Of a stretch of 36,872 nt of DNA, positions 15,895-35,076 are shown in pieces; position 1 is the first letter of the stretch; every line of letters begins with the position of its first letter. The notes beneath the pieces were generated by a model. The model saw only the letters and a list, made by a program, of their open reading frames with translations. It was not told the DNA's origin and made no database searches. The stretch lies in the IMG/VR virus record IMGVR_UViG_3300025000_000259, positions 1-36,872 of that record. One strand, given 5' to 3'. This DNA comes from a virus. Position numbers and translations under genes: made by a program.

Positions 15895-16284
15895 ATTAAA
15901 AAAATTAAGAATATTCATTTAGAAGATAAACATAAGGATGATGAAGAAATAGAATTAGAAAAACAATACATAGAAAATGAAGATGATTCTATTGAGACAC
16001 AATCTGCATATAAAACTAGATGTCCTAATTTAGTTACAGAAGAAGTAATAATAATAAAAGAAACAGATGAAGGTGGTAAGATGGAAGTGCATTTCCCAAG
16101 AAGTACGTGTAAGGATACAAATGGGCATGTTACATGTTGTGGTAATTTAATATACTGCGAAAAGAATGTTAAAAATAAAGACGACAAGAAAGAAAAGTTT
16201 GGTAAGGACGATAAACTTGCAGTAGAGATACAAAAAGTTAAGAAAGAACAAAAGAAACAAAATAAAAAGAAAGATAAGGAGTAG
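15895..16284 (+). CDS. Hypothetical charged protein with apparent ATT start
   Basis: The frame is open from a TAA at 15871. The only SD (AGAAGGA, 15881-15887) sits 7 bases before ATT 15895. No ATG, GTG or TTG occurs in frame before ATG 16081, which lacks a good SD. From ATT the product is 129 residues: acidic N-terminal half, Cys-containing centre (TRCPNL; STCKDTNGHVTCCGNLIYC) and a very basic Lys-rich tail. The Cys cluster suggests metal binding. Starting at 16081 would give only 67 residues and strand the strong SD. Function unknown. Confidence 0.65.
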   Translation: MKKIKNIHLEDKHKDDEEIELEKQYIENEDDSIETQSAYKTRCPNLVTEEVIIIKETDEGGKMEVHFPRSTCKDTNGHVTCCGNLIYCEKNVKNKDDKKEKFGKDDKLAVEIQKVKKEQKKQNKKKDKE

Positions 16285-16293
16285 TTAAATAAT

Positions 16294-16671
16294 ATGCTAT
16301 ACACAACATATTTAAGTAAAATGAATAAATTACCAGATAATATAAAGAAACTTGTAATTACAAGATTCCCACCTAAATCATTTAATCCAAATAAATATCC
16401 TAATACATTTATAACTAAAGAATTAGCACCATATCCAGAAATATTATTAGATTATAAAAAAGATAATGATTGGGATAGATATGTTGAAAGATTTAATTCA
16501 CAAATGCAAAGAGATCATATTATGGCAATATATTTAGATAAGTTATATTTGAAATTATCTCAAGGTGAAGATTATGCTTTAATTTGCTATGAAAAGGATT
16601 TTATACATTGTCATAGATATTTAATTGCAAAGTATTTAGAAAATAAAGGAATTGAATGGAAAGAGTTTTAG
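16294..16671 (+). CDS. DUF488 family protein
   Basis: The 125-residue protein shows family hallmarks: an N-terminal MLYTTYLSKMNKLPDNIKK in place of the usual TIGHS-like strand, PPKSFNPNKY, and the C-terminal signature YALICYEKDFIHCHRYLIAKYL with its conserved Cys and His-Cys-His-Arg. DUF488 members are small proteins of unsettled function. The start ATG is close behind AAGGAG. It probably lies in the operon driven by the 15840 promoter. Confidence 0.75.
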   Translation: MLYTTYLSKMNKLPDNIKKLVITRFPPKSFNPNKYPNTFITKELAPYPEILLDYKKDNDWDRYVERFNSQMQRDHIMAIYLDKLYLKLSQGEDYALICYEKDFIHCHRYLIAKYLENKGIEWKEF

Positions 16672-16683
16672 AAAGGAGATAAT

Positions 16684-17040
16684 ATGTACAACAATATAAT
16701 AGAAAATTTATTTAATTCATTTTCATTATTAAATACTACATCAACTACAACTTCATCAAATAATCAAGATAGTAATTTTACTATTGAAAAATTATATGAT
16801 GCAATAGAATTAGTTAATAAAACTATTCCTAGAACTAAACTTGATGATGAAATAGAAAAGTTTATTATTTCTAATAATTGCACAATCAATGATGTATTAT
16901 TAATTGTAAATTCAGATGAAATATCTCATAATGGAATATTACCATTATCTATAGGCAAAGTAAAAGTAAAAACAAGTAATTTTGCTCCTAGAGGCGAAAT
17001 ATTTATATTGCTAAATAAGGAGATAAACTATGGATTATAA
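16684..17040 (+). CDS. Hypothetical protein with Ser/Thr/Asn-rich N-terminus
   Basis: 118 residues, ATG after GAAAGGAG. Residues 18-32 are almost all Ser, Thr and Asn, a flexible linker. Then TIEKLYDAIELVNKTIPRTK forms a helix, and a compact C-terminal domain ends NFAPRGEIFILLNKEINYGL. The last 11 bases overlap the next gene and contain its SD, implying coupled translation. No family recognised. Confidence 0.7.
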   Translation: MYNNIIENLFNSFSLLNTTSTTTSSNNQDSNFTIEKLYDAIELVNKTIPRTKLDDEIEKFIISNNCTINDVLLIVNSDEISHNGILPLSIGKVKVKTSNFAPRGEIFILLNKEINYGL

Positions 17041-17227
17041 AAATGAATGTCTATGTGGAGGAAAAGAATTTTTTAATCAAAGATTTAAAGTATATTTAAA
17101 CTACGAAACGCAACAATTTAGAATATGTAAGAAATGTGGAACAATGAAAATGTTAATTAATTATTACAATGATGAAGAAAATATTTATATGAGTACTGTA
17201 CAGTATAAATCTATTAAAGGAGAATAA
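17030..17227 (+). CDS. Zinc-ribbon protein, 65 residues
   Basis: ATG 17030 lies inside the preceding gene, behind AAGGAG. CLCGG near residue 7 and ICKKCG near residue 34 form a two-knuckle ribbon. The C-terminus is acidic then polar. Likely a metal-binding adaptor; function unknown. Confidence 0.7.
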   Translation: MDYKNECLCGGKEFFNQRFKVYLNYETQQFRICKKCGTMKMLINYYNDEENIYMSTVQYKSIKGE

Positions 17228-17260
17228 TTCTGCAATAAAGAAAAAGTTTAAATAAATAGA

Positions 17261-17335
17261 AAAAGTTGGCATAAATGAAACATAAATAAATTCCTTCCGA
17301 CAGGTCATATATGCTATAATTACATGCCAACTTTT
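17261..17335 (+). promoter_or_regulatory. Inverted repeat enclosing an extended -10 promoter
   Basis: AAAAGTTGGCAT (17261-17272) pairs exactly with ATGCCAACTTTT (17324-17335) across a 51-base loop. Just before the right arm sits TGCTATAAT (17312-17320), an extended -10 element, so transcription would start inside the right arm. AGAAAAAGTT is also directly repeated at 17239 and 17258. The gap 17228-17426 holds no gene. Confidence 0.5.
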
Positions 17336-17426
17336 CTAATAGTATTATTAACTAAGATAGTGTAAAATATACACATACTCAAATCAACAATTAAATTAAA
17401 AGAAATAAAGGAGATTCTAATCAAAT

Positions 17427-17759
17427 ATGAATAATCCAAGAAAACAATCGTTAACTAAATCACAACAATTAGATATAAAAACTAGAAACAAGAATCACAT
17501 TGAAAAAACAACAGTAAAATTAATTCAATATTATTCTGATCCTGATAAAAAACAAAGAATTAATGATAATCATCTATGTAAATATTGCTATTATTTTCAC
17601 ACTGATAGAATCGGTGGTGCAATGATAACCACTGTCATATGTGCAAATGAAAATTGTGACAAAGAGTTAAATTTTAGCAATACTTGTACAGACTTATTAT
17701 GTGATTATTGTGCCGAAAAATTAAAATTATGTAAACATTGTGGACAAAAGATGGATTGA
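17427..17759 (+). CDS. Multi-zinc-knuckle protein, 110 residues
   Basis: The start ATG follows AAAGGAG with a 13-base spacer. The N-terminal 50 residues are basic and helical. The rest contains successive Cys pairs: CKYC, ICANENC, CTDLLCDYC and CKHCG, enough for two zinc sites. It heads a run of tightly packed small genes after the 17312 promoter. Function unknown; nucleic-acid binding is a guess. Confidence 0.75.
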   Translation: MNNPRKQSLTKSQQLDIKTRNKNHIEKTTVKLIQYYSDPDKKQRINDNHLCKYCYYFHTDRIGGAMITTVICANENCDKELNFSNTCTDLLCDYCAEKLKLCKHCGQKMD

Positions 17760-17778
17760 GAAAGGAGATATATTATAA

Positions 17779-18282
17779 ATGAATATATGCAAAGACTGTG
17801 AAACATTACAACAAAACTATAATGATTTATATTGGAAATATGATAATCTTTTAGATAAATATCATAAATTAAAAGAAGAATATAATAAAACATGTAATAA
17901 ATTAGATTCGGCAAATTTTAAAATCAACACGGAGTTAGAACCAAGAATTAAAAATGAGCAAAGAAATTATGATAGTTACATTCTTAATGGTGGAGGAGAT
18001 GAATGTTTTCAAAATGGCATGAGTGGTAAATGCGGATACGAATGTTCTATATTTGGAAATAAATCAGAATGTTTTGAGAATATCACAACAGAAGAGCAAA
18101 TATTAGATACATATGAGAATTACATTAATACAGGATATATTCTTGACTTGATTAAAGAATATGGACTAGAAGATAAAGCAAAATGGATAGATAAAGAAAT
18201 ACTGAGAAAACAAATGGGTATACATCAAAGAGAAATAGATAAATTATATAAAGAATTATTAAATATTAGCAAAGGAGTATAA
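17779..18282 (+). CDS. Coiled-coil protein with central Cys-rich segment
   Basis: 167 residues, ATG after AAAGGAG. It starts MNICKDC, then a heptad-like coiled coil runs over residues 8-60 (YNDLYWKYDNLLDKYHKLKE). A Cys-rich centre follows (ECFQNGMSGKCGYECSIFG, then ECF), and a helical C-terminus (IHQREIDKLYKELLNISKGV). Probably an oligomeric adaptor. No family recognised. Confidence 0.75.
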   Translation: MNICKDCETLQQNYNDLYWKYDNLLDKYHKLKEEYNKTCNKLDSANFKINTELEPRIKNEQRNYDSYILNGGGDECFQNGMSGKCGYECSIFGNKSECFENITTEEQILDTYENYINTGYILDLIKEYGLEDKAKWIDKEILRKQMGIHQREIDKLYKELLNISKGV

Positions 18283-18289
18283 ATAAAAT

Positions 18290-18514
18290 ATGTCAACAAT
18301 AAGATTAAATAACGGGAATCAAATATTTTACACATCAAATTCTAATGTTGTTAGAGGTAAAAGAAGTAAATTAATAAGTTTCTATTGTGTTAATTGTAAA
18401 CAAATGCATATTGACGTTCCTACTGAAGAATTTATGTATGTTAATGAAAATGTAACTATGTGTAAAACTAGTTATGAAAGTGTTATTAAACCATTTATAA
18501 AGGATGATAATTAG
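18290..18514 (+). CDS. Hypothetical 74-residue protein with CxxC
   Basis: ATG after AAAGGAG that overlaps the previous stop. The product is beta-rich at the N-terminus (STIRLNNGNQIFYTSNSN), then FYCVNCKQMH and a later Cys (TMCKTSY). One zinc site is possible. It ends one base before the next ATG. Confidence 0.7.
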   Translation: MSTIRLNNGNQIFYTSNSNVVRGKRSKLISFYCVNCKQMHIDVPTEEFMYVNENVTMCKTSYESVIKPFIKDDN

Positions 18515-18515
18515 T

Positions 18516-18797
18516 ATGAATATGTTAAGAGGTAATAGAAAAGGATTCTATGAAGATGCATGTAATTTATCAGATGAAGACATAAATAAATCATTAGAAT
18601 TAAATAATGAAATAATAGCAATTGATAATGTAAATAAACATGTATATTGTACTCAATGTGTAAATGGCAAAAGTTTAATTAAAGCAATAAATAAAGATAA
18701 AAATATTCCTGAAATTTGTAACTATTGCCATCCTTATAATCCTGAAGGTAGTATGTCATTTTCAATTAGAAGGTGTTATATAGAGGAAGGAGTATAA
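18516..18797 (+). CDS. Hypothetical 93-residue zinc-knuckle protein
   Basis: ATG 18516 is chosen because the frame's first ATG (18504) abuts its SD (AAAGGATG). The product shows NLSDEDINKSLELNNEIIAI, then CTQC and CNYCHPYNPEG plus a final Cys, a four-ligand zinc site. The SD of the next gene lies in its last codons. No function assigned. Confidence 0.65.
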   Translation: MNMLRGNRKGFYEDACNLSDEDINKSLELNNEIIAIDNVNKHVYCTQCVNGKSLIKAINKDKNIPEICNYCHPYNPEGSMSFSIRRCYIEEGV

Positions 18798-18799
18798 AC

Positions 18800-18979
18800 A
18801 TGAATAATTTTAATATAAGATGTAAAACATGTGGTAGTGATAAATGGAAATTAGAGTATAGTGAAAAATTTAATAATTATCATAATGATAGTTATACAGA
18901 TCATTTTGTATATTTAGTATGTTGCCATTGTGGATATAAAGCAACTTTGTATCGTTATTATACAACTTCATATAGTTAA
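18800..18979 (+). CDS. Zinc-ribbon protein, 59 residues
   Basis: ATG 18800 follows GGAAGGAG. CKTCG near residue 8 and VCCHCG near residue 43 frame a single zinc ribbon with an aromatic, basic tail (YKATLYRYYTTSYS). Function unknown. Confidence 0.7.
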   Translation: MNNFNIRCKTCGSDKWKLEYSEKFNNYHNDSYTDHFVYLVCCHCGYKATLYRYYTTSYS

Positions 18980-18991
18980 AGGAGATATATT

Positions 18992-19114
18992 ATGAAATAT
19001 GATAACTTATCTAGTAGTTGTAGTAATTGTAAGTATAAATTTAATAATACGAATGAAGAACCTTGTAAAAGTTGTGAATTAGGATTAAAATGGGAATATA
19101 ATGGAGAAAATTAA
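18992..19114 (+). CDS. Tiny 40-residue zinc-knuckle protein
   Basis: ATG 18992 follows AAAGGAG. The product has CSNC and CKSC 16 residues apart, the minimal ligand set for one zinc. It begins MKYDNLSSSCSNCKYKF and ends KWEYNGEN. The position in an unbroken SD-led series supports expression. Confidence 0.65.
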   Translation: MKYDNLSSSCSNCKYKFNNTNEEPCKSCELGLKWEYNGEN

Positions 19115-19130
19115 ATAGGAGATAAATAAT

Positions 19131-19445
19131 ATGACTAAAGATTACATGTGTAAAGGATTAAATAGACAAAATGATTTGTGCTGTTATATAATTAGTCCAA
19201 TTTTATGTAAAGGATGCCCTTATTTTAAAAAAGAATGGCAAGAAAAAATAGAAGAAAGTCAGTATACTTATTGTATAATTTATGAAGAAAAACCCATGAA
19301 AGATTGCTCAGGAGCATATTTTAATAAAAATAAAGGAATATATGAATGTGAATATCAAAAAAATGATTATAGTAATTTAAAGAAATATAAAAAATGTCCA
19401 CATAAAACAGTAAGAAAGGAATTTAAAGGAAAATTCAATGACTAG
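19131..19445 (+). CDS. Cys-rich protein, 104 residues
   Basis: ATG after TAGGAG. Ten Cys are spread through the protein (MCKGL; LCCYI; LCKGCPYF; YCIIYE; DCSGAYF; YECEY; KCPHKT). This looks like a compact metal-binding or disulfide fold. Its stop overlaps the next ATG by 8 bases. Function unknown. Confidence 0.7.
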   Translation: MTKDYMCKGLNRQNDLCCYIISPILCKGCPYFKKEWQEKIEESQYTYCIIYEEKPMKDCSGAYFNKNKGIYECEYQKNDYSNLKKYKKCPHKTVRKEFKGKFND

Positions 19446-19626
19446 AGTATCAAAATTAAAGAAACAATTGCTTTTATCTAAATATAAAGAGTATGAATTT
19501 TGTGCCAAAGAATATAAGGAAGATGGCAATATTCATATGTATGAAATTTATATCAACAAGTTAAAAGCAATTCGCGTAACATTATCTATATTAGAGATAC
19601 ATATTGATGGTATTAATATGTCTTAA
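19438..19626 (+). CDS. Hypothetical 62-residue helical protein
   Basis: ATG 19438 overlaps the previous stop; AAAGGAAA is 6-10 bases upstream. The product is a basic helix-turn-helix-like bundle (VSKLKKQLLLSKYKEYEFCA; LKAIRVTLSILEIHIDGI). No recognised family. Confidence 0.6.
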   Translation: MTRVSKLKKQLLLSKYKEYEFCAKEYKEDGNIHMYEIYINKLKAIRVTLSILEIHIDGINMS

Positions 19627-19649
19627 AAATTAAAAAGTAGGTGAAAATT

Positions 19650-19835
19650 ATAAAACTACTATCACAGAAAGAAGCAAAAGTAATATCTGAAAAATATTTA
19701 TATTCTGAATTAGATAATGAATATTTACATTGGGAAGAAATGAAACGCAAAGGATACAAAGTAACTAATAAGAAAAATGTTCAACAAGGTAAGATTGTAA
19801 CTTATGTAAAATATACTGAATTGAAAGATTGGTGA
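19650..19835 (+). CDS. Hypothetical 61-residue protein with apparent ATA start
   Basis: The frame contains GTG 19641, but that GTG is part of the SD AGTAGGTG itself. The codon with correct spacing (6 bases) is ATA 19650, giving IKLLSQKEAKVISEKYLYSE and ending YVKYTELKDW. The product is charged and helical. It belongs to a set of non-ATG genes with GGTG-type SDs. Function unknown. Confidence 0.6.
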   Translation: MKLLSQKEAKVISEKYLYSELDNEYLHWEEMKRKGYKVTNKKNVQQGKIVTYVKYTELKDW

Positions 19836-19841
19836 TTGAAT

Positions 19842-20096
19842 ATGCTAAAAGTAAAACAAAATACATATCTAGATATTGAACTCAAACAAGGTGATGAAGT
19901 ACAATGGATACATGGTAAGAAATGTTACTATCTATATAAAACACCAATAAATAATATTACTTTTGATAAGAAACATTTTGCATCTCCTGATTGCAATAGA
20001 GATGGAATTAAACCAAATGGTCAACAAGTAAGTTTAGTAGGTATTGTTGCACAAATTAAATCAAAAGGATATATTTTAGAGTTAGAGTATATTTAA
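19842..20096 (+). CDS. Hypothetical 84-residue protein
   Basis: ATG 19842 is chosen with GGTGA at about 19830 as SD; TTG 19836 is the alternative. The product begins MLKVKQNTYLDIELKQGDEV and is beta-rich with a short Cys-containing middle. It ends SKGYILELEYI. It starts directly after the previous stop, consistent with coupling. No family recognised. Confidence 0.6.
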   Translation: MLKVKQNTYLDIELKQGDEVQWIHGKKCYYLYKTPINNITFDKKHFASPDCNRDGIKPNGQQVSLVGIVAQIKSKGYILELEYI

Positions 20097-20120
20097 GAAT
20101 AATGAAAGGAACAGTAAAAT

Positions 20121-20492
20121 ATGAAATCATGGTTAGAAGCAAAGTATGGTATGACTGTTTATATCACAAATGAAATTGAATTATTTGATAATGAAGATAA
20201 TTTAGTAGGCAAAACTAAACCATTACAAAAAGCATTTATAGATGAAATATTTAATGATGAAATTAAAATTGTTATTGATGGTGGAAAATATAACTACTGT
20301 GATTTTTATTTTCATCCTTCAGAAGATAATCCATCTGAATTATTAACTATTCAAGAATATAAAGAATTAAAATTAACGGAAATAAAAGTGTGGAAAGAAT
20401 TAAAGAAATATGTTGATATGATTGATAAATTAAATAATAAGTCATATGATATTATAACTGTTAGGGATTTAATTGAGAAGAATAATAAGTAA
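20121..20492 (+). CDS. Hypothetical 123-residue protein
   Basis: ATG after AAAGGAAC. The N-terminal two thirds alternate strands (MTVYITNEIELFDNEDNLVG; EIKIVIDGGKYNYCDFYFHP), followed by a helical, lysine-rich end. It is acidic overall. No recognised motif. Confidence 0.7.
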   Translation: MKSWLEAKYGMTVYITNEIELFDNEDNLVGKTKPLQKAFIDEIFNDEIKIVIDGGKYNYCDFYFHPSEDNPSELLTIQEYKELKLTEIKVWKELKKYVDMIDKLNNKSYDIITVRDLIEKNNK

Positions 20493-20509
20493 AAAGGAGA
20501 TTAAATAAT

Positions 20510-21461: not shown

Positions 21462-21476
21462 TTAAAAGGAGGTAAA

Positions 21477-21853: not shown

Positions 21854-21874
21854 AGAAAGGAGAAAATTAATATT

Positions 21875-22081: not shown

Positions 22082-22207
22082 ATGGCAAACTGCAATATTT
22101 GTTTAAATAAAAATAAGGCATGTCATATTTGTGGAATAGGATATTATTGGATGATGTATTTAAAACCAAAATATAAAAGTGAGGTGAAAATTAATATTAC
22201 TCAATGA
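22082..22207 (+). CDS. Tiny 41-residue double-knuckle protein
   Basis: ATG 22082 after AAAGGAG. CNIC and CHIC are 9 residues apart, then a hydrophobic patch (GYYWMMYL) and a basic end. Its 3' end carries the GAGGTG SD of, and overlaps, the next gene. Confidence 0.6.
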   Translation: MANCNICLNKNKACHICGIGYYWMMYLKPKYKSEVKINITQ

Positions 22208-22805
22208 AAACTATAATAAAAACGAATCAAAAGAACATTATGAATTAAAACAAATTGCAAAGTATATCTTATACTCAAAAGGTTATAATTGCATCGCCAC
22301 AGAAGTACAATTTCCTAAATATTCTCAATATCTTGGTAATTATGAATGGTTTAACTCTAAAGCAACACGAAAAAATACCATTGATGTTGTAGGAATTAAA
22401 GGTAATTTATTAAATACTAGAGAAAATACAGTAGACAAATACAAAGTAATGGGATTCGAAGCAAAAGCATCATATTCAGATTTTCTAAATGGATTTTGTA
22501 CTCAATGTGAATACACTTACATAATATGCCCAGAAGGTATTATACCTATTGACAAATTACCACCTAAAATTGGTTTAATATTTGTTGACATTAAAAATTA
22601 CACTATTAAACAAAATAAATTAGGTAAATTTGAATTTAAGGGAATTACTACAGTTAAACAATGTGCAAGCAGAAGAAAAGATATTTATAAAAGGAATGAT
22701 ATTTATTTAGTGGATACTTTTAATGTGCTGAGAAAGATTGCCTATAGAAATACAGTCAATGATTTATTTAAAAAGAGTGAAATAAAAATTGAAGGATTAA
22801 AATAA
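22194..22805 (+). CDS. PD-(D/E)XK-like nuclease (MmcB-like) with apparent ATA start
   Basis: The frame opens at 22188, and GAGGTG (22181-22186) lies 7 bases before ATA 22194. No ATG, GTG or TTG occurs in frame until ATG 22449. From ATA the product is 203 residues. An N-terminal helix with Glu (HYELKQIAKYILYSKGY) is followed by NTIDVVGI (metal Asp), GFEAKASYSDF (E-x-K) and YTYIICPEGIIP, then KIGLIFVD. That is the PD-(D/E)XK fold order seen in MmcB-like proteins. The metal Asp lies upstream of ATG 22449, so a 22449 start would destroy the active site. It probably cuts or repairs DNA; the target is unknown. Confidence 0.72.
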   Translation: MLLNENYNKNESKEHYELKQIAKYILYSKGYNCIATEVQFPKYSQYLGNYEWFNSKATRKNTIDVVGIKGNLLNTRENTVDKYKVMGFEAKASYSDFLNGFCTQCEYTYIICPEGIIPIDKLPPKIGLIFVDIKNYTIKQNKLGKFEFKGITTVKQCASRRKDIYKRNDIYLVDTFNVLRKIAYRNTVNDLFKKSEIKIEGLK

Positions 22806-23638: not shown

Positions 23639-23878
23639 ATGGGGAAATGTTATTTTTGTGGGAAACCAGCAACTAAAAACGCATGGACAGAAGAAATATT
23701 TATTTGTGATGTATGTGATGAAGAATCAAGTAAAGAATTAAATTGTCCTGAATATAAATATGGTGGAGAATGTTTAATGAATCTTCCTGGTAGATGTATA
23801 AAATATGGCAATATATGTTGTGTATTTTGTGAAGAATTTAAAACATGTGAACATCCATGCGATATGTATTTAAAGTAA
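23639..23878 (+). CDS. Cys-rich zinc-finger protein, 79 residues
   Basis: ATG after AAAAGGAG. Cys pairs CYFC, CDVC, CCVFC plus single Cys residues (thirteen in all) suggest two or more metal sites; the start MGKCYFCGKPATKN resembles AN1/ZZ-type knuckles. It is the last gene before the 23894 promoter. Function unknown. Confidence 0.72.
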   Translation: MGKCYFCGKPATKNAWTEEIFICDVCDEESSKELNCPEYKYGGECLMNLPGRCIKYGNICCVFCEEFKTCEHPCDMYLK

Positions 23879-23893
23879 TATGAAAAATAAATC

Positions 23894-23925
23894 TTGACAA
23901 AATAATAATAGAATGATAATATAAT
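23894..23925 (+). promoter_or_regulatory. Sigma-A type promoter upstream of the nucleotide operon
   Basis: TTGACA (23894-23899) has two overlapping -10 choices: TAATAT at 23917 (17-base spacer) and TATAAT at 23920 (20-base spacer). It most likely drives the 23967 gene and then the glutaredoxin/nrdG/nrdD/dut genes. Confidence 0.75.
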
Positions 23926-23966
23926 AGTAAATTAAGTAGTATTAATTTAAGGAGGTGAAATTTTGT

Positions 23967-24134
23967 TTGTTTGATATTAGCAAATGCATTAATGATAAGT
24001 GCAAAAAAGCATGTAAATGTTTAAGGTTCTTATGTGAAGATAGTGAATATCAAAGTTATTTAAATGGGAAAGATTGTTGTGAGAATAATGAATATGAACA
24101 ATTTATTGAAATTAAGAGATTAGGGAATAATTAA
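23967..24134 (+). CDS. Cys-rich 55-residue protein, TTG start
   Basis: TTG 23967 lies 9 bases after GGAGGTG; other frames hit a stop at once. The product has a dense Cys cluster in its first 25 residues (CINDKCKKACKCLRFLC) and a CC pair later (KDCCENN). First gene of the nucleotide operon transcript. Metal or Fe-S binding is possible but unproven. Confidence 0.65.
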   Translation: MFDISKCINDKCKKACKCLRFLCEDSEYQSYLNGKDCCENNEYEQFIEIKRLGNN

Positions 24135-24882: not shown

Positions 24883-27800
24883 ATGAAATTAAATGATAGC
24901 AGCCAACAAGATAGTAAATTTAGAATTGAAATTACTTTAGATGAAGATTATAAAATTCAATTTCAAAGACTTAAAAAGAAATATGGAGAAGAAATGTTTG
25001 AAATAGAAGGACTAGATAAAGAATCGCTTAATATTACTAATTTCTTTAAGAGATTTATGAATAGTGATAATGTAGCTAACGCTTCTATTGATGATAATAG
25101 TAATGTTACAGACAAAAATATATCTATAATGTTAAGTGAAAGCAGAAAACCATATAATAAATTACTTTCACATAATAAAATTTACATAGAATTAAAAGAA
25201 AATTTTGGGAAAGAAACAGCAGATAAATGGTTAGAATTACAAATTAATGGTGCGTTATATTCGCATGATAGTCATGAATCAACATTGAAACCATACTGTT
25301 TTGCATTTTCATTAAAACCTATTGTTGAAAAAGGATTATTTTTTATTGATACAATGAAAGCGAAACCTGCACAACATTTAGATACATTTAATCATCATGT
25401 ATTAGAATTTGTATCTTACGCCACTAATATGCAATCTGGAGCAGTAGGGATACCTGATTATTTAATTTATGCTTATTATTATTGGCAAAATGATGTTAAA
25501 ACAAATTATGTTGCAGATGCAGAAGTATATAAAAAGCAAAAATGGCAAGAAATACTATTTAATTTAAATCAACCTTATTTAAAAGGTGGAGAACAATCTG
25601 CTTATACAAATTTCAGTATCCTTGATAGAGAACATATTTTAGGACTTTTAAGCACAGAAGTTTTTCCTGACAATAGTTTAATTATTGATCATTTAGAAGA
25701 AATTATTCAATATCAAAAAGACTTTCTTGATTATGAGAGAGAAATAAGATATGAAAAATTCTTTACATTCCCAGTAATATCTGCAAGTTTGTTGTTTCAA
25801 AATGATAAATATGTAGATGAAGATATGGCTAGATTTATCAATAAACATAATATGACTTGGCAAGATGTAAATATTTATAATGCTACAGAAGTCGATGCGT
25901 TGTCAAGTTGTTGTTTTGACGGTAAACAAATGACATTAACAAAATCATCAGATGGTATTAATTATATGACATTTAAAGAAATTCATGAATCTTCTTATAA
26001 AAATGCAAAAAGAAATTTCACAATATTCCATAACGGAAGTTGGGTCAAAGGGAAAGTGATTCGTTTACCAAAAAGAAATATTTATAAAATTATTACTGCT
26101 AACAAAAAAGAAATATATATTACTGATAATCATATTAATCCTACTTTAAATGGAGAAAAAACAACTATTGATTTAACCGAAAATGATTATTTATTATTTA
26201 ATAATCTTGCACTTGATACATTTCCAGAAAAAGATAAAAACTTAACTTATGAGCAAGGTGTTTTAATAGGAATGTATTTAGGTGATGGAAGTATATATGA
26301 CAATAAAGAAAATAATAATACACCTATTATTAATTTATCATTAAATGAAACAAAATATGATAATTCATTAGAAATTATTAAAAAAGCAGTTAATTTAATT
26401 ACAAATGACTTAACAGTTAATATTGTATTAAATAAACAATATAATAATGTCTATCCAGTAGTTATTAGAGATACAAAAATTGCTGAATTTATCAGAGAAT
26501 ATGTATTTGGCAATTATAGTTTTGAAAAAGAATTAAATCTTAATTGTTTATTACAATCTAGAGAATTTAGACAAGGTATTTTAAAAGGATATTATTTAAC
26601 AGATGGTGGAAATAGTAATAGAATATATACAACATCTAGTAAATTAGTCAGCCAAATAGAATGCATTATGACATCTCTTGGTCTTAATTCTATTATAGAT
26701 TTATCAGATAGAACGGATGAAAAAGTTATAATTAGAGAACAAGAATTCAATAGAAATTATCCACTTTATTGCATTAGATGGTATGATCCAAAAAATAAAA
26801 GAAGTATGGAAAATGTATTTAAAATAAAAAATAATAATACATATTTTAAAATAATTTCTATTGAAAAAATAGAGTCATCAAGTGAATATGTTTATTGTTT
26901 TGAAATGAAAGACAAAGAAGAAAGTTATTTTACATTACCTAATGGTATTATTACTCATAATTGTCGGTTAACCAGTTCATTAAAAGATATAGAAGAAGAT
27001 ATTGAAAACAAAGATGAAGGAGAAGAATTAAAAGGACATTTTAATTCTATAGGCGGCTCATCAATATCTATCGGCAGTGCAAAAGTTAATACTCTTAATT
27101 TAGTTAGGATTGCTCTTGAATCAAAAGGTGATTTTAAAAGGTATAAGAAAATTTTAAAAGATAGAGTTGATATATCACATAAATATTTATATGTACAAAG
27201 AGAAGTATTAAAGAAAAATATTATCAAAGGATTATTACCTTTATACACTTTTGAATTATTAAATTTAAATCGTCAATTTAGCACTATAGGCATTACAGGT
27301 GTTTTTGAAACAATTGCATTACTTGGCGGTATTAGTAAAAATGCTAGTGGTGTTTATTATAATGAGAAAGGATTACAATTTGCAAAAGAAATATTAAATA
27401 TTGTAAATGAAGCAAATAAAACTACAAAAATATTATATGGATATAATGCCAACATGGAACAAATTCCATCAGAATCATGTGCTATTAAGATATGTAAAAA
27501 AGATAAACTAATTTATGGTCAAGATAGTGTTGACACTTATATCTATGGAAATCAATGGATACCACTTAATCAACAATGTGATACAATGGAAAGAGTAAGA
27601 GTATCTTCTTTATTAGATAGTGCTTGTGGTGGTGGAGTTATGTTACATATAAATCTCACAGAACCATTTAAAGATGAAGAACAAGCATGGAGATTAATGA
27701 ATAAGCTTGCAAATGAAGGTATAGTGTATTTTAGTTTTATTTCAAAAATCAATGTATGTAAAAATGATCATTCATTTTATGGTGATATATGTCCTATCTG

Positions 27801-27918
27801 TCAAGGTGAGGTAACAGATAGTTATATAAAAATAGTAGGGTATCTAGTGAAAGCATCATCTTATAAAAAAGAAAGAGCAAAAGAAATGAAAGAAAGAGTA
27901 TTTTATAATTTAAATTAA
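24883..27918 (+). CDS. nrdD: Class III (anaerobic) ribonucleoside-triphosphate reductase with intein
   Basis: A 1011-residue precursor; without the intein (Cys344-Asn693) 661 residues remain. The enzyme reduces NTPs to dNTPs without oxygen. Visible: LYSHDSHESTLKPYCFAF (the usual HD region), HVLEFVSYATNMQSGAVGIP, the spliced DALSSC-CRLTSS active-site motif, NRQFSTIGITGVFETIALLG, the zinc site (VCKNDHSFYGDICPIC) and the C-terminal glycyl-radical segment IVGYLVK with Gly986. The N-terminal part before the core is too short for an ATP-cone, so dATP feedback may be missing. ATG after GGAAAGGA, 3 bases after nrdG. Activated by the upstream NrdG. Confidence 0.94.
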   Translation: MKLNDSSQQDSKFRIEITLDEDYKIQFQRLKKKYGEEMFEIEGLDKESLNITNFFKRFMNSDNVANASIDDNSNVTDKNISIMLSESRKPYNKLLSHNKIYIELKENFGKETADKWLELQINGALYSHDSHESTLKPYCFAFSLKPIVEKGLFFIDTMKAKPAQHLDTFNHHVLEFVSYATNMQSGAVGIPDYLIYAYYYWQNDVKTNYVADAEVYKKQKWQEILFNLNQPYLKGGEQSAYTNFSILDREHILGLLSTEVFPDNSLIIDHLEEIIQYQKDFLDYEREIRYEKFFTFPVISASLLFQNDKYVDEDMARFINKHNMTWQDVNIYNATEVDALSSCCFDGKQMTLTKSSDGINYMTFKEIHESSYKNAKRNFTIFHNGSWVKGKVIRLPKRNIYKIITANKKEIYITDNHINPTLNGEKTTIDLTENDYLLFNNLALDTFPEKDKNLTYEQGVLIGMYLGDGSIYDNKENNNTPIINLSLNETKYDNSLEIIKKAVNLITNDLTVNIVLNKQYNNVYPVVIRDTKIAEFIREYVFGNYSFEKELNLNCLLQSREFRQGILKGYYLTDGGNSNRIYTTSSKLVSQIECIMTSLGLNSIIDLSDRTDEKVIIREQEFNRNYPLYCIRWYDPKNKRSMENVFKIKNNNTYFKIISIEKIESSSEYVYCFEMKDKEESYFTLPNGIITHNCRLTSSLKDIEEDIENKDEGEELKGHFNSIGGSSISIGSAKVNTLNLVRIALESKGDFKRYKKILKDRVDISHKYLYVQREVLKKNIIKGLLPLYTFELLNLNRQFSTIGITGVFETIALLGGISKNASGVYYNEKGLQFAKEILNIVNEANKTTKILYGYNANMEQIPSESCAIKICKKDKLIYGQDSVDTYIYGNQWIPLNQQCDTMERVRVSSLLDSACGGGVMLHINLTEPFKDEEQAWRLMNKLANEGIVYFSFISKINVCKNDHSFYGDICPICQGEVTDSYIKIVGYLVKASSYKKERAKEMKERVFYNLN
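25912..26961 (+). mobile_element. Intein in the Cys-Cys active-site motif of NrdD
   Basis: A 350-residue in-frame insert between Cys343 and Cys694. It begins CFDGKQMTL (Cys344), has a block-B-like YITDNHINPT, and ends YFTLPNGIITHN before extein Cys694. Two LAGLIDADG blocks are visible: VLIGMYLGDGSIYD and LKGYYLTDGG, with the usual spacing, so the homing endonuclease may be intact. Splicing restores SSCCRLTSS, the conserved NrdD motif near the thiyl-radical cysteine. The extein residue just before the intein is also Cys. Confidence 0.95.
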
Positions 27919-28523: not shown

Positions 28524-28552
28524 TTGACATAAGTAAAATATAATTGTATAAT
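28524..28552 (+). promoter_or_regulatory. Sigma-A type promoter
   Basis: TTGACA (28524-28529), a 17-base spacer, TATAAT (28547-28552), then AATAAACAATAG. The sequence is very close to the 34819 promoter. It starts the second small-gene region, 32 bases before ATG 28584. Confidence 0.92.
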
Positions 28553-29913: not shown

Positions 29914-30695
29914 CTACTTTAAACTATGTAGAATTTTACGATACATTAGAAAAATCAAACAACACACTAATAAGAAAAATAAATAGATTTTTATATGATA
30001 CTCTTAATTTAGAAATATCTGTTAACAACAAAATATTCATAATTGATGTAGAAAATATTTTTAATAGAAAATTTCTTTGTGATAAAAATAATTGCGATAT
30101 GATTATCAAATATAAAAATGATAATTCTTTAAATGACATAGAATTTATAGATGGGTCATGTTGCGAAACAGGTTCTTATAGAATGTCTAAAGAAACTGAA
30201 GAATATATAGATAAACATTTAGATAAAATATTACCCTACTTATCAGGTAAAAATCAAGATTATATAAGGGAATGTGGTTGGAAATATAATAAGCAAGATT
30301 ATGATGACAATAGTACAGATTTTACTGATTATGATTTATGTATTTTTAGTTTTATAGAAAACGAAATGTCTTATTGTGCATTGCATAGATATGCTTTAGA
30401 TAATGATATTGATATTTTAGAAGTAAAACCTTTTGATTGCTATATGTTTCCATTAGATATTATAGAGTATAATAATAAATATATTTTAACTACAGTATCT
30501 AATGATTCAAGAAATGCTGATTTTAGTAGGTGGAGAGACTATCATTGTTTTAATAAATGTATTATAAATAAAGACAAAGGTATTCCTATGTATGAACATA
30601 GCAAAGATGTGTTAATTAAATTGTATGGAAAAGAATTATATAATAAATTAGACGAAATTTATAAAAGTGATGAATGGAAGAAATTGTTGAAATAA
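29910..30695 (+). CDS. DUF3109-like cysteine-motif protein
   Basis: 261 residues. A Cys pattern is visible: FLCDKNNCDM, GSCCETGSYRMSKETEE, DLCIFSFIENEMSYCALHRY, then KPFDCYMFPLDII, a late CFNKC, and the C-terminal PMYEHSKDVLIKLYGKELY. This order matches DUF3109/YkgJ-like proteins, whose conserved Cys residues are thought to bind zinc or Fe-S. The family function is not settled. ATG overlaps the previous stop; SD AAAGGAG. Unusual cargo for a phage. Confidence 0.65.
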   Translation: MTTLNYVEFYDTLEKSNNTLIRKINRFLYDTLNLEISVNNKIFIIDVENIFNRKFLCDKNNCDMIIKYKNDNSLNDIEFIDGSCCETGSYRMSKETEEYIDKHLDKILPYLSGKNQDYIRECGWKYNKQDYDDNSTDFTDYDLCIFSFIENEMSYCALHRYALDNDIDILEVKPFDCYMFPLDIIEYNNKYILTTVSNDSRNADFSRWRDYHCFNKCIINKDKGIPMYEHSKDVLIKLYGKELYNKLDEIYKSDEWKKLLK

Positions 30696-30720
30696 TTTAT
30701 AAATTATAAAGGAGAAAAAT

Positions 30721-30897
30721 ATGAAAAAATTTGTTGTATAAATGGCAGTAGGATTTTGTGCTAGTTTAACTGTAGATGCCAAAAATAAAGAAGAAGCAAT
30801 TAAATTAGCAAAAGAATTAGTTTTGGAAGATGCAATTGAATATTATAATGGTAATTTAGAAATAGAAGACGTTAATTTTGTTCAAGAAGTAGAATAA
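30721..30897 (+). pseudogene. Small ferredoxin-like gene with in-frame TAA at codon 7
   Basis: ATG 30721 follows AAAGGAG at ideal spacing and reads MKKFVV, then TAA (30739-30741), then ATG at 30742 in the same frame. The following 51 residues (MAVGFCASLTVDAKNKEEAI...) continue the expected beta-alpha pattern, like the 21713 gene. Either a nonsense mutation, a readthrough site, or re-initiation at the adjacent ATG (30742-30897). The intact downstream frame argues that some product is made. Typing it as a pseudogene is provisional. Confidence 0.55.
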
Positions 30898-30933
30898 TAT
30901 AAAATATATAAATTTAAAGTGAGGTGATTTATT

Positions 30934-31092
30934 ATCAAAAAATTAAATATATTCCTAAAAATAAAAAATAAATATAGACAATTTAAATGTAAATATGATT
31001 TGCATGATTATAAAGATGATAAAGATTTTTCTTTACCTGCTCATTTTTATGAATATACATGTCAATATTGTGGTAAAAAATTTTATATATAA
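30934..31092 (+). CDS. 52-residue zinc protein with apparent ATC start
   Basis: The frame opens after TGA at 30925-30927, inside the SD GAGGTG (30921-30926). ATC 30934 lies 7 bases after the SD; there is no ATG or GTG in frame, only an internal TTG. The product IKKLNIFLKIKNKYRQFKCK... has a basic N-terminus, CKYDLHDY, and ends TCQYCGKKFYI: three or four metal ligands. Function unknown. Confidence 0.62.
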   Translation: MKKLNIFLKIKNKYRQFKCKYDLHDYKDDKDFSLPAHFYEYTCQYCGKKFYI

Positions 31093-31107
31093 AGGAGAGT
31101 GTTTACT

Positions 31108-32055
31108 ATCAACATAAATAATCAAACAAGATGCATTAACTCTAACCAATATACATTAGAAAATTTACTCAATCTATGTAATACAACAGATAAAATAAAA
31201 TCAATTGCACAAACTTCAGATGGATTAAAATACCTAAAAACAATCCTATCAGATAAACGTGCCATGTTATACTTTAAACAATCGTCTACTAGGACGTTTC
31301 TATCTTTCCAAAACTCATGTCATATTTTAGGAATACCTACATCTGAAATAAGAGATACATCAACATCCTCAGAAACTAAAGGTGAATCAGAGTTGGATGC
31401 AATTAAAACTTTCTCACAATACTCAGATTTAATTATTATGAGACATCCATCAAACGATTTTATTTATGAAATATCTAATAATCTATCTGATAAAACAAGA
31501 ATAATAAATGCAGGAAGTGGATCTGACCAACATCCCACACAAGCATTATTAGACTTCTATACTATATATAAATATGGTTTAGAAAATAAGAAAATTGCTT
31601 TTGTTGGTGATTTATTAAGAGGACGTACTGTTAGATCATTATCATTGTTATTAAATAAAGTTAATGGTACTAAATTATATTTTGTTTCACCTAAACAATT
31701 TCAAATTAAATCCGATATCTTAGAGCAATTGAATGTAGATTATGAAATTACTGATGATTTTAACAAGATATTACCTGATATGGATGTAGTGTATATGGTG
31801 AGATTGCAAGATGAATATAAAAATGAAGGTATTAATGAAAATGAAATTATTGATACTAGTAAATATTCAATTAATAGTAGCAATATAAATAAAATGAAAG
31901 ATGATGCAATTATACTTCATCCATTACCTAGAAGAGATGAGATTAGTGTTGAGGTTGATAAAGATAAACGTGCAAAGTATTGGCAACAGTGTGAAAATGG
32001 AATGTGGGTGCGTGTTGCGTTAATTATGAGTATGTTCGGAATGAGTAAATTGTAA
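31108..32055 (+). CDS. pyrB: Aspartate carbamoyltransferase, catalytic chain
   Basis: About 315 residues, the normal PyrB length. The enzyme joins carbamoyl phosphate and aspartate, the committed step of pyrimidine synthesis. Carbamoyl-phosphate motif: FKQSSTRTFLSF. Active-site lysine loop: STSSETKGESELDAI. Further motifs: SDQHPTQALLDFYTI, VGDLLRGRTVRSL, and the aspartate-site HPLPRRDEISVEVD. The ending GMWVRVALIMSMFG is also PyrB-like. The start is uncertain: AAAGGAG lies one base before GTG 31099 and 10 before ATC 31108. No regulatory chain (pyrI) or other pyr gene is near. Rare cargo for a phage; likely boosts pyrimidine supply. Confidence 0.9.
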   Translation: MNINNQTRCINSNQYTLENLLNLCNTTDKIKSIAQTSDGLKYLKTILSDKRAMLYFKQSSTRTFLSFQNSCHILGIPTSEIRDTSTSSETKGESELDAIKTFSQYSDLIIMRHPSNDFIYEISNNLSDKTRIINAGSGSDQHPTQALLDFYTIYKYGLENKKIAFVGDLLRGRTVRSLSLLLNKVNGTKLYFVSPKQFQIKSDILEQLNVDYEITDDFNKILPDMDVVYMVRLQDEYKNEGINENEIIDTSKYSINSSNINKMKDDAIILHPLPRRDEISVEVDKDKRAKYWQQCENGMWVRVALIMSMFGMSKL

Positions 32056-32088
32056 AATTATTATATATCAAAAAGGAGAATAAATAAT

Positions 32089-32265
32089 ATGTCCACAAAA
32101 ATATCACATGAAAAATACTTAGAAAATATTCTATATTCCGCAAAATTAACATTAAAAGAATTAGAAACATTGCATAGGATTAATATTGCAGTATATGAAG
32201 GGAAGAAAGAAATATTAACTAAACAAATTGAATCAATAGAAAAACAATTAGAAGCAAATAAATAG
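32089..32265 (+). CDS. Helical 58-residue protein
   Basis: ATG 32089 follows AAAAAGGAG. The product is almost wholly helical with heptads (YLENILYSAKLTLKELETLH; KEILTKQIESIEKQLEANK), suggesting a coiled-coil dimer. It comes just before the 32284 promoter. Function unknown. Confidence 0.65.
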   Translation: MSTKISHEKYLENILYSAKLTLKELETLHRINIAVYEGKKEILTKQIESIEKQLEANK

Positions 32266-32283
32266 AAAAATACAAAATAACTC

Positions 32284-32312
32284 TTGCAATTTTGACAGAT
32301 TAGTAATATAAT
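32284..32312 (+). promoter_or_regulatory. Probable sigma-A type promoter
   Basis: TTGCAA (32284-32289), 17 bases, TATAAT (32307-32312). A second -35 (TTGACA, 32293-32298) shares the GATTAG spacer start of the 34819 promoter but would need a poorer -10. Drives the 32367 gene. Confidence 0.7.
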
Positions 32313-32366
32313 AAATATTAATATCAAATCGAACTTTTGTGATGATTTAAGAAAGGAGTAAATATC

Positions 32367-32564
32367 ATAATAAATTTAGATACAGAAAGAAAACTTCAAG
32401 AAATTTTAGAATACTTTTGTAAATATAAATGTGATAAAACTGAAATAGAAGAAAATATTATTGATATGGTAGAAGGTGATTTTACTGATATACAAATAGA
32501 CGGAAATATATGTGGTATTTGCAAAGTAAGAGATTTTATTAGAGAGATTAGGGATGAATTTTAA
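32367..32564 (+). CDS. Hypothetical 65-residue protein with apparent ATA start
   Basis: The frame is open from 32346. GAAAGGAG (32351-32358) is 8 bases before ATA 32367; ATC 32364 and ATA 32370 are alternatives. The first ATG in frame falls in the middle of the protein. Product: INLDTERKLQEILEYFCKYK, then DMVEGDFTDIQIDGNICGIC and a helical end. Two Cys pairs. Function unknown. Confidence 0.62.
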   Translation: MINLDTERKLQEILEYFCKYKCDKTEIEENIIDMVEGDFTDIQIDGNICGICKVRDFIREIRDEF

Positions 32565-32581
32565 AATAAAGGAGTAAACAT

Positions 32582-32854
32582 ATGTTAACCAAATTAGTTA
32601 ATGATAAACTAATCAACAATAAACTACAGGAAATAATAGATTATTTTCAATTAGGTGAAGGTTATGATGAACATGAAATTATAACTGATGTATTAGGAGA
32701 AATTAAAGAATTAAAAAATTATAGTGCAGATGAAATAGAACTTGAATGGGATAAAGAACATTTAATGGCATTAGATGATTTTGTAAATGAATTTTATCAT
32801 AAATTAATTGAAAATGTATGTAATGTTTTAAAAAGTTTTAAGGATGGTAAATAA
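32582..32854 (+). CDS. Hypothetical acidic helical protein, 90 residues
   Basis: ATG after AAAGGAG. Mainly helical and acidic (DEHEIITDVLGEIKELKNYS; LMALDDFVNEFYHKLIENV). No motif recognised. Confidence 0.65.
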   Translation: MLTKLVNDKLINNKLQEIIDYFQLGEGYDEHEIITDVLGEIKELKNYSADEIELEWDKEHLMALDDFVNEFYHKLIENVCNVLKSFKDGK

Positions 32855-32875
32855 TCAAATAAGGAGCACCCAAAC

Positions 32876-33154
32876 ATGGAATTAATATATATAGATATAA
32901 TTGATGCAATTCAATATGCAGTTGATAAAATTGCTAAACAACAATACAAAAATGATCCATGTAAACCTAAATTTATTGTTAGTCAATTAGATAAATACAA
33001 TAATGAAAGTGAAATAATTCAACATGAAATTATATTAACTATTAAACATTCTAATCAACAACGTACAAGACCATTATTCCCTAGATTAGATTATAAATAT
33101 GGTTATGAATCATTAAAAAATGAAATGGAATGGTTGTATAATTCAACAATGTAG
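32876..33154 (+). CDS. Hypothetical 92-residue protein
   Basis: ATG after AAGGAG with a long spacer of 13 bases. An N-terminal helix (DIIDAIQYAVDKIAKQQYK) precedes a beta-rich segment ending in a helix (YESLKNEMEWLYNSTM). No family recognised. Confidence 0.65.
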   Translation: MELIYIDIIDAIQYAVDKIAKQQYKNDPCKPKFIVSQLDKYNNESEIIQHEIILTIKHSNQQRTRPLFPRLDYKYGYESLKNEMEWLYNSTM

Positions 33155-33172
33155 AAAGGAGAAAACTAATTT

Positions 33173-33427
33173 ATGATAATTGATTTAAATGAATTTGATA
33201 AACTAAAGAAATTTATATTTGAAGAAGAAGAAGATATAAACGATAAACATCCATTTTTAACAGAATATTGTTCTCAATGTATTCCAGAAGAAAACACTAA
33301 TAATAAATGTGAATACCAAAAAATGTGTTTAAGATATCCCACTATATCTAATAGAGAAGATTATTATAATTTAGTTAAAGATTTATTTGATACTATTGAA
33401 TTTATGATGAAAAATAAATCAAAATAA
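33173..33427 (+). CDS. Hypothetical 84-residue protein with Cys cluster
   Basis: ATG after GAAAGGAG. A central CSQCIPEENTNNKCEYQKMC places four Cys in a zinc-like arrangement between two helices (DLNEFDKLKKFIFEEEEDI; YYNLVKDLFDTIEFMMKN). Function unknown. Confidence 0.68.
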   Translation: MIIDLNEFDKLKKFIFEEEEDINDKHPFLTEYCSQCIPEENTNNKCEYQKMCLRYPTISNREDYYNLVKDLFDTIEFMMKNKSK

Positions 33428-33448
33428 TAATTAAAAGGAGAAATAATT

Positions 33449-33619
33449 ATGATTTATAAAATGGAATTAACTACAGAAGAAATGAATGTAGTTATAAATG
33501 CACTTAGTTTTGTACTAGAAAATAATAATTTAAGTGAACATGCTATTAATTGGTATAATAAAGTTAAAGAACATTTTGAGTCTGAATATAAAAAACAATG
33601 TAGAAAGGAGAATATCTAA
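33449..33619 (+). CDS. Hypothetical 56-residue helical protein
   Basis: ATG 33449 follows AAAAGGAG. Helical throughout (LTTEEMNVVINALSFVLENN; AINWYNKVKEHFESEYKKQC). The next gene's SD is inside its last codons. Function unknown. Confidence 0.65.
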   Translation: MIYKMELTTEEMNVVINALSFVLENNNLSEHAINWYNKVKEHFESEYKKQCRKENI

Positions 33620-33620
33620 T

Positions 33621-33884
33621 ATGCAATATATAGTAAAATCAGACGAACAATTTTTTAATCAATTTAAATCACTAGAAGATAGAATCAAAGAATTATCTGT
33701 ACTATTTAAAATATCTTCTACAGATGAAATTGTAGTATCAGATATAGAAATGTTAGAGTGGCACAATATAGCAACAAAACTTCAAAAAGATTTATCTAAG
33801 TTAATTGCAGATGGAATGTTTAGATTTAAAAATAAAGATAATGATATAATAAATATAAAAATACCAAGAAAGGAGAATTCCTAA
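33621..33884 (+). CDS. Hypothetical 87-residue protein
   Basis: The frame is open further upstream, but AAAGGAG at 33604-33610 selects ATG 33621. Product: MQYIVKSDEQFFNQFKSLED followed by helices (LEWHNIATKLQKDLSKLIAD). Basic C-terminus. No family recognised. It ends one base before the next ATG. Confidence 0.65.
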   Translation: MQYIVKSDEQFFNQFKSLEDRIKELSVLFKISSTDEIVVSDIEMLEWHNIATKLQKDLSKLIADGMFRFKNKDNDIINIKIPRKENS

Positions 33885-33885
33885 T

Positions 33886-34083
33886 ATGGATAGAATAATG
33901 AAAGCACAAAAAGCAGATGTATTAATACAATTTGAAGAAAAGAAAAAAGAAGAAGGTAGATTAAAAGAAAGAAAAAGAATTGCTGAAAAATTAGTAAGTG
34001 ATTATTGTTGTGTACCTAAATATTATGAATATTGTAACAATGATTGCGTACCATGTTGGATGGAATACTTAAAACCTAAATGA
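33886..34083 (+). CDS. Lysine-rich helical protein with Cys tail
   Basis: 65 residues; ATG follows AAAGGAG in the preceding gene. The N-terminal 38 residues form a highly charged helix (FEEKKKEEGRLKERKRIAEK). Then five Cys occur in DYCCVPKYYEYCNNDCVPCW, a possible zinc site. Function unknown. Confidence 0.65.
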   Translation: MDRIMKAQKADVLIQFEEKKKEEGRLKERKRIAEKLVSDYCCVPKYYEYCNNDCVPCWMEYLKPK

Positions 34084-34120
34084 AAATAATTAAAAACAAT
34101 ACATAAAGGAGATAGATATT

Positions 34121-34288
34121 ATGAACAATGATTTAAAAACTTCTTATGGTATTTGTACGAATGGTAAATTATATTGCTCAAAATGTAGAAGATTAATTGT
34201 TGATCCTGAAATTATTAGAATTGATAATGGGAAACCTGTTACGTTCTGTTATTGTGGAAATTATATTATAATTGAAAATGATAAGTGA
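34121..34288 (+). CDS. Zinc-ribbon protein, 55 residues
   Basis: ATG 34121 after AAAGGAG. YCSKCRRLIVD and FCYCGNYIIIE give two Cys pairs about 25 residues apart, a zinc ribbon. Function unknown. Confidence 0.68.
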   Translation: MNNDLKTSYGICTNGKLYCSKCRRLIVDPEIIRIDNGKPVTFCYCGNYIIIENDK

Positions 34289-34328
34289 GGAAAAGAAAGG
34301 AAATAATAGAAAGGAAATATAAAAAATA

Positions 34329-34541
34329 ATGAATGATAATCTAATGTGTCCATTTTGTCATCAAGATATTAGTGTTAATAATCACGCATGGAATTGTGAA
34401 ATGAATCCTGTTAATATGAATAATAATGAATTTCAAAATAAAAATCATAAACAATATGAAGAAATGTTTACGAATTTTATAAATTTAGAAAAATCAATAA
34501 AAAATCATAAAAATATCAAATTTACCAAAATTGACGATTGA
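34329..34541 (+). CDS. Small zinc-finger protein, 70 residues
   Basis: ATG 34329 with GAAAGGAAA about 12 bases upstream. The N-terminus LMCPFCHQDISVNNHAWNCE is a complete C-x2-C...H...C finger; the rest is Asn/Lys-rich. Function unknown. Confidence 0.65.
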   Translation: MNDNLMCPFCHQDISVNNHAWNCEMNPVNMNNNEFQNKNHKQYEEMFTNFINLEKSIKNHKNIKFTKIDD

Positions 34542-34543
34542 CG

Positions 34544-34566
34544 AAACCCTTATAAATCAAGGGTTT
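34544..34566 (+). terminator. Hairpin after the 34329 gene
   Basis: AAACCCTT (34544-34551) pairs with AAGGGTTT (34559-34566) around ATAAATC. The U-run is only TTT, so the terminator strength is doubtful. It begins the structured 93-base gap 34542-34633. Confidence 0.5.
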
Positions 34567-34633
34567 ACAGGATCGGAAATCGTGATGAAATTCATCTTTG
34601 GTGTTGTTTTTAAGTTAAGAAAGGAGTGTAATT

Positions 34634-34822
34634 TTGAGTAATAAAGAATTACTAGATAAAATATTATTAAATAAAGAAGATTATTTTATTTGGGTGCATG
34701 AAGATATTATATTTGCTGAGGATAGAATTGATAAAACTACTTATAATTTTTCTATTTATGGTAAAGAAATGATAGTATTTTTGTTTAGATATTTTGGATT
34801 TGATGCAATAAATGTATCTTGA
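34634..34822 (+). CDS. Hypothetical 62-residue protein, TTG start
   Basis: TTG 34634 lies 6-9 bases after AAAGGAGTG. Product: MSNKELLDKILLNKEDYFIW..., amphipathic helices and aromatic strands ending FRYFGFDAINVS. Its TGA stop is part of the TTGACA of the next promoter. No family recognised. Confidence 0.65.
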   Translation: MSNKELLDKILLNKEDYFIWVHEDIIFAEDRIDKTTYNFSIYGKEMIVFLFRYFGFDAINVS

Positions 34823-34847
34823 CAGATTAGAAATATAATTGTATAAT
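34819..34847 (+). promoter_or_regulatory. Sigma-A type promoter overlapping a stop codon
   Basis: TTGACA (34819-34824), a 17-base spacer, TATAAT (34842-34847), then AATAAAGAATAG. The last 12 bases of the spacer differ from those of the 28524 promoter at only two positions or so. Drives the membrane-protein gene at 34888. Confidence 0.92.
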
Positions 34848-34887
34848 AATAAAGAATAGAAAATAAACAAGAAAGGAGGTGTTTTCT

Positions 34888-35076
34888 ATAAATCTATATA
34901 TTCCTTGGTATGAATTTTTGATTATATTCGTTTGTATAGGATTTGGTTATGCGTATTATATTGGAACTAAACATAATGGTGCATATGATTTTGTAACACC
35001 TATGTTGATGTTATGTGTAATTGTAGGAACAATAGTAGGTGCTATAGCATTTTTAATTGGAAAGTTTTTGTGTTAA
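34888..35076 (+). CDS. Two-helix membrane protein with apparent ATA start
   Basis: AAAGGAGGTG (34872-34881) is followed 6-8 bases later by ATA 34888. The in-frame GTG 34879 is part of the SD and cannot serve as a start. Product: INLYIPWYEFLIIFVCIGFG..., two hydrophobic segments (about residues 7-23 and 37-60), joined by a polar loop (GTKHNGAYDFVT). No signal peptidase site. Possibly a small membrane-acting early protein; no holin family recognised. Confidence 0.68.
   Translation: MNLYIPWYEFLIIFVCIGFGYAYYIGTKHNGAYDFVTPMLMLCVIVGTIVGAIAFLIGKFLC

Follow-up and report, generated by a model that had tools for sequence, protein, structure and literature searches.

Initiation at AUA, AUC or AUU (together AUH) is sensitive to IF3, as infC exemplifies. 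The infC gene starts at AUU or AUA behind a strong SD, encodes the discriminating factor and autoregulates. The genes described here share AUH behind a strong SD with infC, but none of them encodes IF3. S. aureus uses conserved AUU and AUA starts with an extended SD in vivo, and these give about 10% of the AUG yield, in one case up to 30%, which the authors credit to IF3-modulated decoding (PMC13009471). That work dealt with four cellular genes, cvfC1, ccpN, infC and citZ, and used Ribo-Ret and reporters (PMC13009471). The present set has the same AUH codons, strong extended SD and retention of the non-canonical codon in relatives, whereas it comprises tens of phage genes and is known from sequence only. 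In Streptomyces, the non-canonical start of sigR limits a potent protein and is repressed by IF3 (PMC5472188). It is, however, a GTC codon in a single gene, and the role of IF3 there has been shown by experiment. The general trend in prokaryotes is that weak starts shift to AUG (PMC5622118). A weak codon is offset by a stronger SD both in the survey of Belinky et al. 2017 (PMC5622118) and in the phages; in that survey GUG and UUG tend back to AUG and switches of AUU are almost unseen, whereas the AUH codons of the phages interchange. No report of an AUH-start habit in phages was found in the literature searched, itself only part of all literature.

The window, i.e. the whole stretch of DNA analysed (36,872 nucleotides), is a 36.9-kb virus record with a GC content of 24.6%. 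Its DNA polymerase aligns over the full length with YorL of Bacillus phage SPBc2 at 53% identity, as expected of a YorL-type replication polymerase, and by sequence similarity the window carries predicted SPbeta-like replication genes. It was compared with 12 fetched relatives, giving a set of 13 related IMG/VR records, environmental SPbeta-like phages with a GC content of about 24–29%. The 13 records are fragments or partial, so absences of genes apply to partial records. Blastn of part of the window against a phage collection and megablast against a plasmid collection gave no match. As a separate observation, positions 24883 to 27918 of the window hold an anaerobic ribonucleotide reductase, NrdD, split by an intein that carries a LAGLIDADG-like domain. 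The weak-start genes of the window are the following:

15895 to 16284, plus strand: gene starting at ATT (or at ATC 15892), 129 aa with conserved Cys; no standard start 5', first ATG at codon 62.
19650 to 19835, plus strand: putative gene starting at ATA, 61 aa; SD agtaggtgaaaattATA, with GTG 19641 within the SD.
22181 to 22193, plus strand: GGTG-extended SD and spacer of the gene at 22194, with an in-frame TGA two codons 5' of the ATA.
22194 to 22805, plus strand: gene starting at ATA, 203 aa; no standard start 5', next standard codon 85 codons in.
23967 to 24134, plus strand: related weak-start gene starting at TTG; its homologues start at ATA, ATT, TTG and TTG behind aaggaggtga.
30934 to 31092, plus strand: gene starting at ATC for a zinc-ribbon-like protein, 52 aa; SD gtgaggtgatttattATC, no standard start 5'; match to phrog_9369.
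31108 to 32055, plus strand: gene starting at ATC for an aspartate carbamoyltransferase (ATCase)-like protein, 315 aa; Pfam OTCace and OTCace_N.
32367 to 32564, plus strand: gene starting at ATA (or at ATC 32364 or ATA 32370), 65 aa; SD gaaaggagtaaatatcATA, no standard start 5'.
34888 to 35076, plus strand: gene starting at ATA for a small membrane-like protein, 62 aa; 12-base SD match.

An earlier note on this DNA had proposed the seven ATA, ATC and ATT codons behind strong SDs, and all seven were found at these positions, at a good distance from the SD. As it had also said, the genes at 22194, 30934 and 32367 have no in-frame ATG or GTG after the 5' stop; they are free of TTG as well, and the same applies to 15895. 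At 19650 and 34888, the sole in-frame GTG is indeed part of the SD. A point absent from that note is that this holds for 31108 too, where the sole 5' standard codon is GTG 31099 inside the SD.

A codon-blind scan of the 13 records was used to ask what stands behind strong SDs. It took ORFs in which no ATG, GTG or TTG has an SD and counted the codons at SD distance irrespective of their identity. Behind SD runs of at least 7, ATA was 3.6-fold, ATC 4.4-fold and ATT 2.1-fold over background, while AAA, AAT, TTA, TTT and TAT stayed near 1-fold behind strong SDs; AUH alone was clearly enriched. In these ORFs without a standard start, 114 ATA, ATC or ATT codons were observed behind strong SDs vs 39 expected. 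With a reversed-sequence null, AUH calls with an SD run of at least 7 numbered 67 in 1337 real ORFs and 15 in 1998 reversed ORFs, which suggests that the strong-SD AUH calls are mostly real. By the same null, individual AUH calls with an SD run of 6 are near noise unless conserved. One AUH call on the minus strand, at 35241, is probably spurious. As a positive control, the scanner set the infC start of a Clostridiales MAG at ATT behind GGAGGTGA. The curated starts of the 13 records are ATG (660), TTG (93), GTG (21), ATA (61), ATT (26) and ATC (12), the last three giving 99 AUH starts. We infer that about 8% of the genes in this phage group, roughly one in twelve, begin at AUH.

Elsewhere, strong-SD AUH calls were 0/15 in a Twort segment, 0/17 in a phage G segment and 4/58 in SPBc2; a 400-kb chromosome at 46% GC is a loose control only. 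In SPBc2, the annotation of youA (L073 44684–45295) begins at an ATT codon, and just before yosV a 69-aa ORF absent from the annotation (128118–128327; L075 18118–18327) has ATT behind aaggaggaagag.

The SD itself differs between the two classes of start. The GGTG-extended SD that the earlier note had seen at several sites is borne out group-wide: it precedes 34/99 AUH starts (34%) vs 54/660 AUG starts (8%; Fisher p = 5e-11), and p = 6e-11 when SD runs of at least 7 are matched. In the window, the extension is clear at 19650, 22194, 30934 and 34888, partial at 31108 and absent at 15895 and 32367. An aligned SD spacing of 7–9 bases was found for 56/67 AUH starts vs 220/411 AUG starts (p = 2e-6). 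Extended SD and tight spacing together look like a way to make up for a weak codon.

The extended SD contains a GTG, and a GTG or ATG in the reading frame lies 9 bases 5' of the AUH codon in the ATCase-like gene and at 34888 and 19650. The true start could thus be this codon, or one further 5', so that ATA, ATC and ATT would be internal isoleucine codons and their exchange synonymous substitution. We hold this very improbable. The GTG of the extended SD shares the reading frame of 14/34 AUH genes, no higher a proportion than the 25/54 of AUG genes, and as a start it would have almost zero SD spacing; hence the SD-internal GTG was rejected as the true start. Moreover, 56 AUH calls group-wide have no NTG between the 5' stop and AUH, with an SD run of at least 7 in 40 of them, and other hydrophobic codons are not enriched. 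The 22194 family, described below, also speaks against it, as its members have a stop just 5' and relatives carry ATG or TTG at the start position or close to it.

The families of the seven genes carry different amounts of information. For 22194, ten near members have their start in one column, with ATA in six, ATT in two, ATC in one and ATG in one. Most of these members carry an in-frame stop inside the SD, two codons 5' of the start, and coding constraint sets in from the next codon. Most of the about 22 distant members begin with TTG directly after a stop. The protein has the motif IDVVG...FEAKASYSDF and weak matches to phrog_631, phrog_5429 and MmcB, and is possibly a PD-(D/E)XK/MmcB-like nuclease; its predicted structure is poor (pLDDT 48). 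For 15895, four homologues, 45–55% identical, have ATA at this column and are conserved from the start residue on; the ATC directly before the start column is invariant, which makes it an alternative AUH start candidate. The ATCase-like gene has five homologues, 73–96% identical, with ATC, ATT, ATC, ATC and ATA at the start column behind differing 5' sequence. An in-frame ATG or GTG at −9 within the SD in 6/6 records casts some doubt on its AUH start, and we consider the in-frame GTG or ATG within the SD an unlikely alternative start both here and at 34888. In the 34888 family, ATA in the window is matched by ATA and ATT in two homologues. At 30934, the next standard codon is 22 codons in, and no homologue was found among the related records; at 32367, it is 33 codons in, and the sole homologue is an identical copy in another record of the set. 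The single homologue of 19650 has its N-terminus in a different frame, with ATGs there, and 19650 appears to be the weakest of the seven sites. As an observation apart from its start, a phage-borne ATCase-like gene with both OTCace domains (31108–32055) is kept in six records.

The conservation of the start class was tested over all families with aligned orthologue pairs of less than 95% identity, expected counts being taken from permutation. First-pass AUG–AUH artefacts, in which the AUH codon lies one or two codons 5' of the true ATG, were excluded from the counts. There were 47 AUH–AUH pairs (permutation mean 6.7, maximum 18) and 16 AUG–AUH pairs (permutation mean 58, minimum 37), and the third base differs in 19 of the 47 AUH–AUH pairs. 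The comparison with related phages which the earlier note had proposed as a check thus shows that relatives retain AUH instead of AUG. The constraint is not absolute, as AUG members are present in some AUH families (fam145, fam121, TnpB and a glutaredoxin-like gene). Since the relatives swap AUH codons mutually and seldom go to AUG, the weak start is probably selected in these phages. Group-wide, the traits of the S. aureus type are thus seen: AUH starts with no alternative standard start, an extended SD more often than at AUG, and retention of the codon in relatives.

If the host initiated well at AUH, the codon could be nearly neutral and drift with low GC. Low GC does favour A/T third bases, and AUH genes are numerous. 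Scanning genome contigs for the helicase yielded no host, and the Clostridiales MAG, the sole match of a second scan, was rejected as probably not the host (locus 42% GC, protein 36% identical). A neutral third base, however, would not produce the AUH–AUH excess, because AUG families remain AUG. AUG starts also outnumber AUH starts by 660 to 99, the type of start is strongly tied to the family, a 151-kb relative gave 86 AUG calls and zero AUH calls in its first 40 kb, and extended SD and tight spacing point to compensation. Drift in an efficient host is therefore quite unlikely in our view. Sequencing or assembly error, or gene decay, has to be considered as the sequences are metagenome contigs, but separate contigs with less than 95% identity concur on AUH and conservation of the coding sequence sets in at codon 2, which makes such an origin hardly credible.

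DNA methyltransferases are the clearest users of AUH: 14 were called (Pfam D12 and N6_N4), with 10 starting at AUH, three at UUG and one at AUG. Further AUH starters are a Mom-family protein, a TnpB-like nuclease, NUMOD/HNH genes, small proteins and a PF05183-matching gene, which we take to be a YonO-like RNA polymerase. HNH/NUMOD nucleases were rejected as a significant AUH class, as they are not clearly enriched (p = 0.06). Judging from these enzyme classes, the AUH-start proteins may be harmful in excess. Mom-family DNA modification proteins have ATA starts at L059 11445–12239 and L034 6617–7384, the latter with a weak SD. The TnpB-like gene L038 17716–18861 has ATC behind an 11-base SD match, and its 74% identical relative in G018 starts with ATG. 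In cellular genomes belonging to the same class as the Clostridiales MAG, some D12 methyltransferases (L216, L205, L197) appear to be ATA-started, L216 with an 8-base SD match.

We think it probable that the seven sites, 19650 being the least sure, are genuine, selected weak starts which act as translational attenuators of particular genes. The extended, well-spaced SD would recruit the 30S subunit strongly, and the initiator tRNA would pair with bases one and two of AUH and not with the third. IF3 would then reject most AUH complexes, so that translation would be a fraction of the AUG level. Such an attenuator would keep DNA methyltransferases at low levels, and probably also nucleases and small proteins, as an excess of them would be harmful or wasteful. 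AUH enrichment, conservation of the start class, extended SD and tight spacing are observed; we infer that initiation takes place at AUH in vivo, that its yield is reduced, that IF3 discriminates against it and that the harm done by surplus product is why. One point against attenuation is that a strong SD, with a consensus promoter in addition at 15895 and 34888, is an odd route to low expression.

Three perfect TTGACA-17-TATAAT promoters are present in the window (15840–15868, 28524–28552 and 34819–34847). Two of them lie directly before AUH genes: the sigma-70-type promoter at 15840–15868 is just 5' of the 15895 gene, and the one at 34819–34847 belongs to the 34888 gene, which is suggestive of poised genes. 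Separately, positions 15809–15873 and 23861–23930 are 76% identical and promoter-like, each before a weak-start gene (ATT 15895 and TTG 23967).

Poised genes of this kind would be expected of an IF3-dependent regulon, in which normal IF3 holds the AUH genes down and they rise jointly once IF3 activity drops or the initiation process is altered in the course of infection or prophage induction. The known IF3 sensitivity of AUH initiation (infC) and the combination of strong promoter, strong SD and weak codon at 15895 and 34888 fit this picture. So do the comparison with the GTC start of sigR (PMC5472188) and the expression of the AUA-started ccpN in S. aureus, which varies with the medium (PMC13009471). 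However, the excess of own promoters before AUH genes is not significant group-wide, and families mix AUH with UUG. Neither an IF3-like gene (PF00707) nor an initiator tRNA was found in the 13 partial records, the sole tRNA gene being a tRNA-Thr, and the phage-modified initiation apparatus suggested by the earlier note finds no counterpart there. We consider an IF3-controlled regulon possible yet unsupported, and rather unlikely. We see only a slim chance that methylases, Mom, nucleases and small proteins form a genome-wide translational layer evolved by a phage lineage, poised by strong SDs and sometimes strong promoters, held at the start codon and jointly released when IF3 discrimination drops in infection or induction. 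The coordinated set that the earlier note suggested is not supported either: the AUH genes belong to unrelated families which hold weak starts one by one, with UUG in some members, and this fits attenuation of individual genes.

The conservation and enrichment of the AUH codons make them very probably real starts, in agreement with the earlier claim that gene finders miss or truncate these genes. As annotation pipelines seldom call AUH, several percent of the genes of such phages, known enzymes included, are probably missed or truncated at the N-terminus. That families conserve a weak codon although the general tendency is towards AUG provides a clean example from nature of weak initiation being selected for, and the AUH genes offer many independent sites for probing discrimination by IF3.
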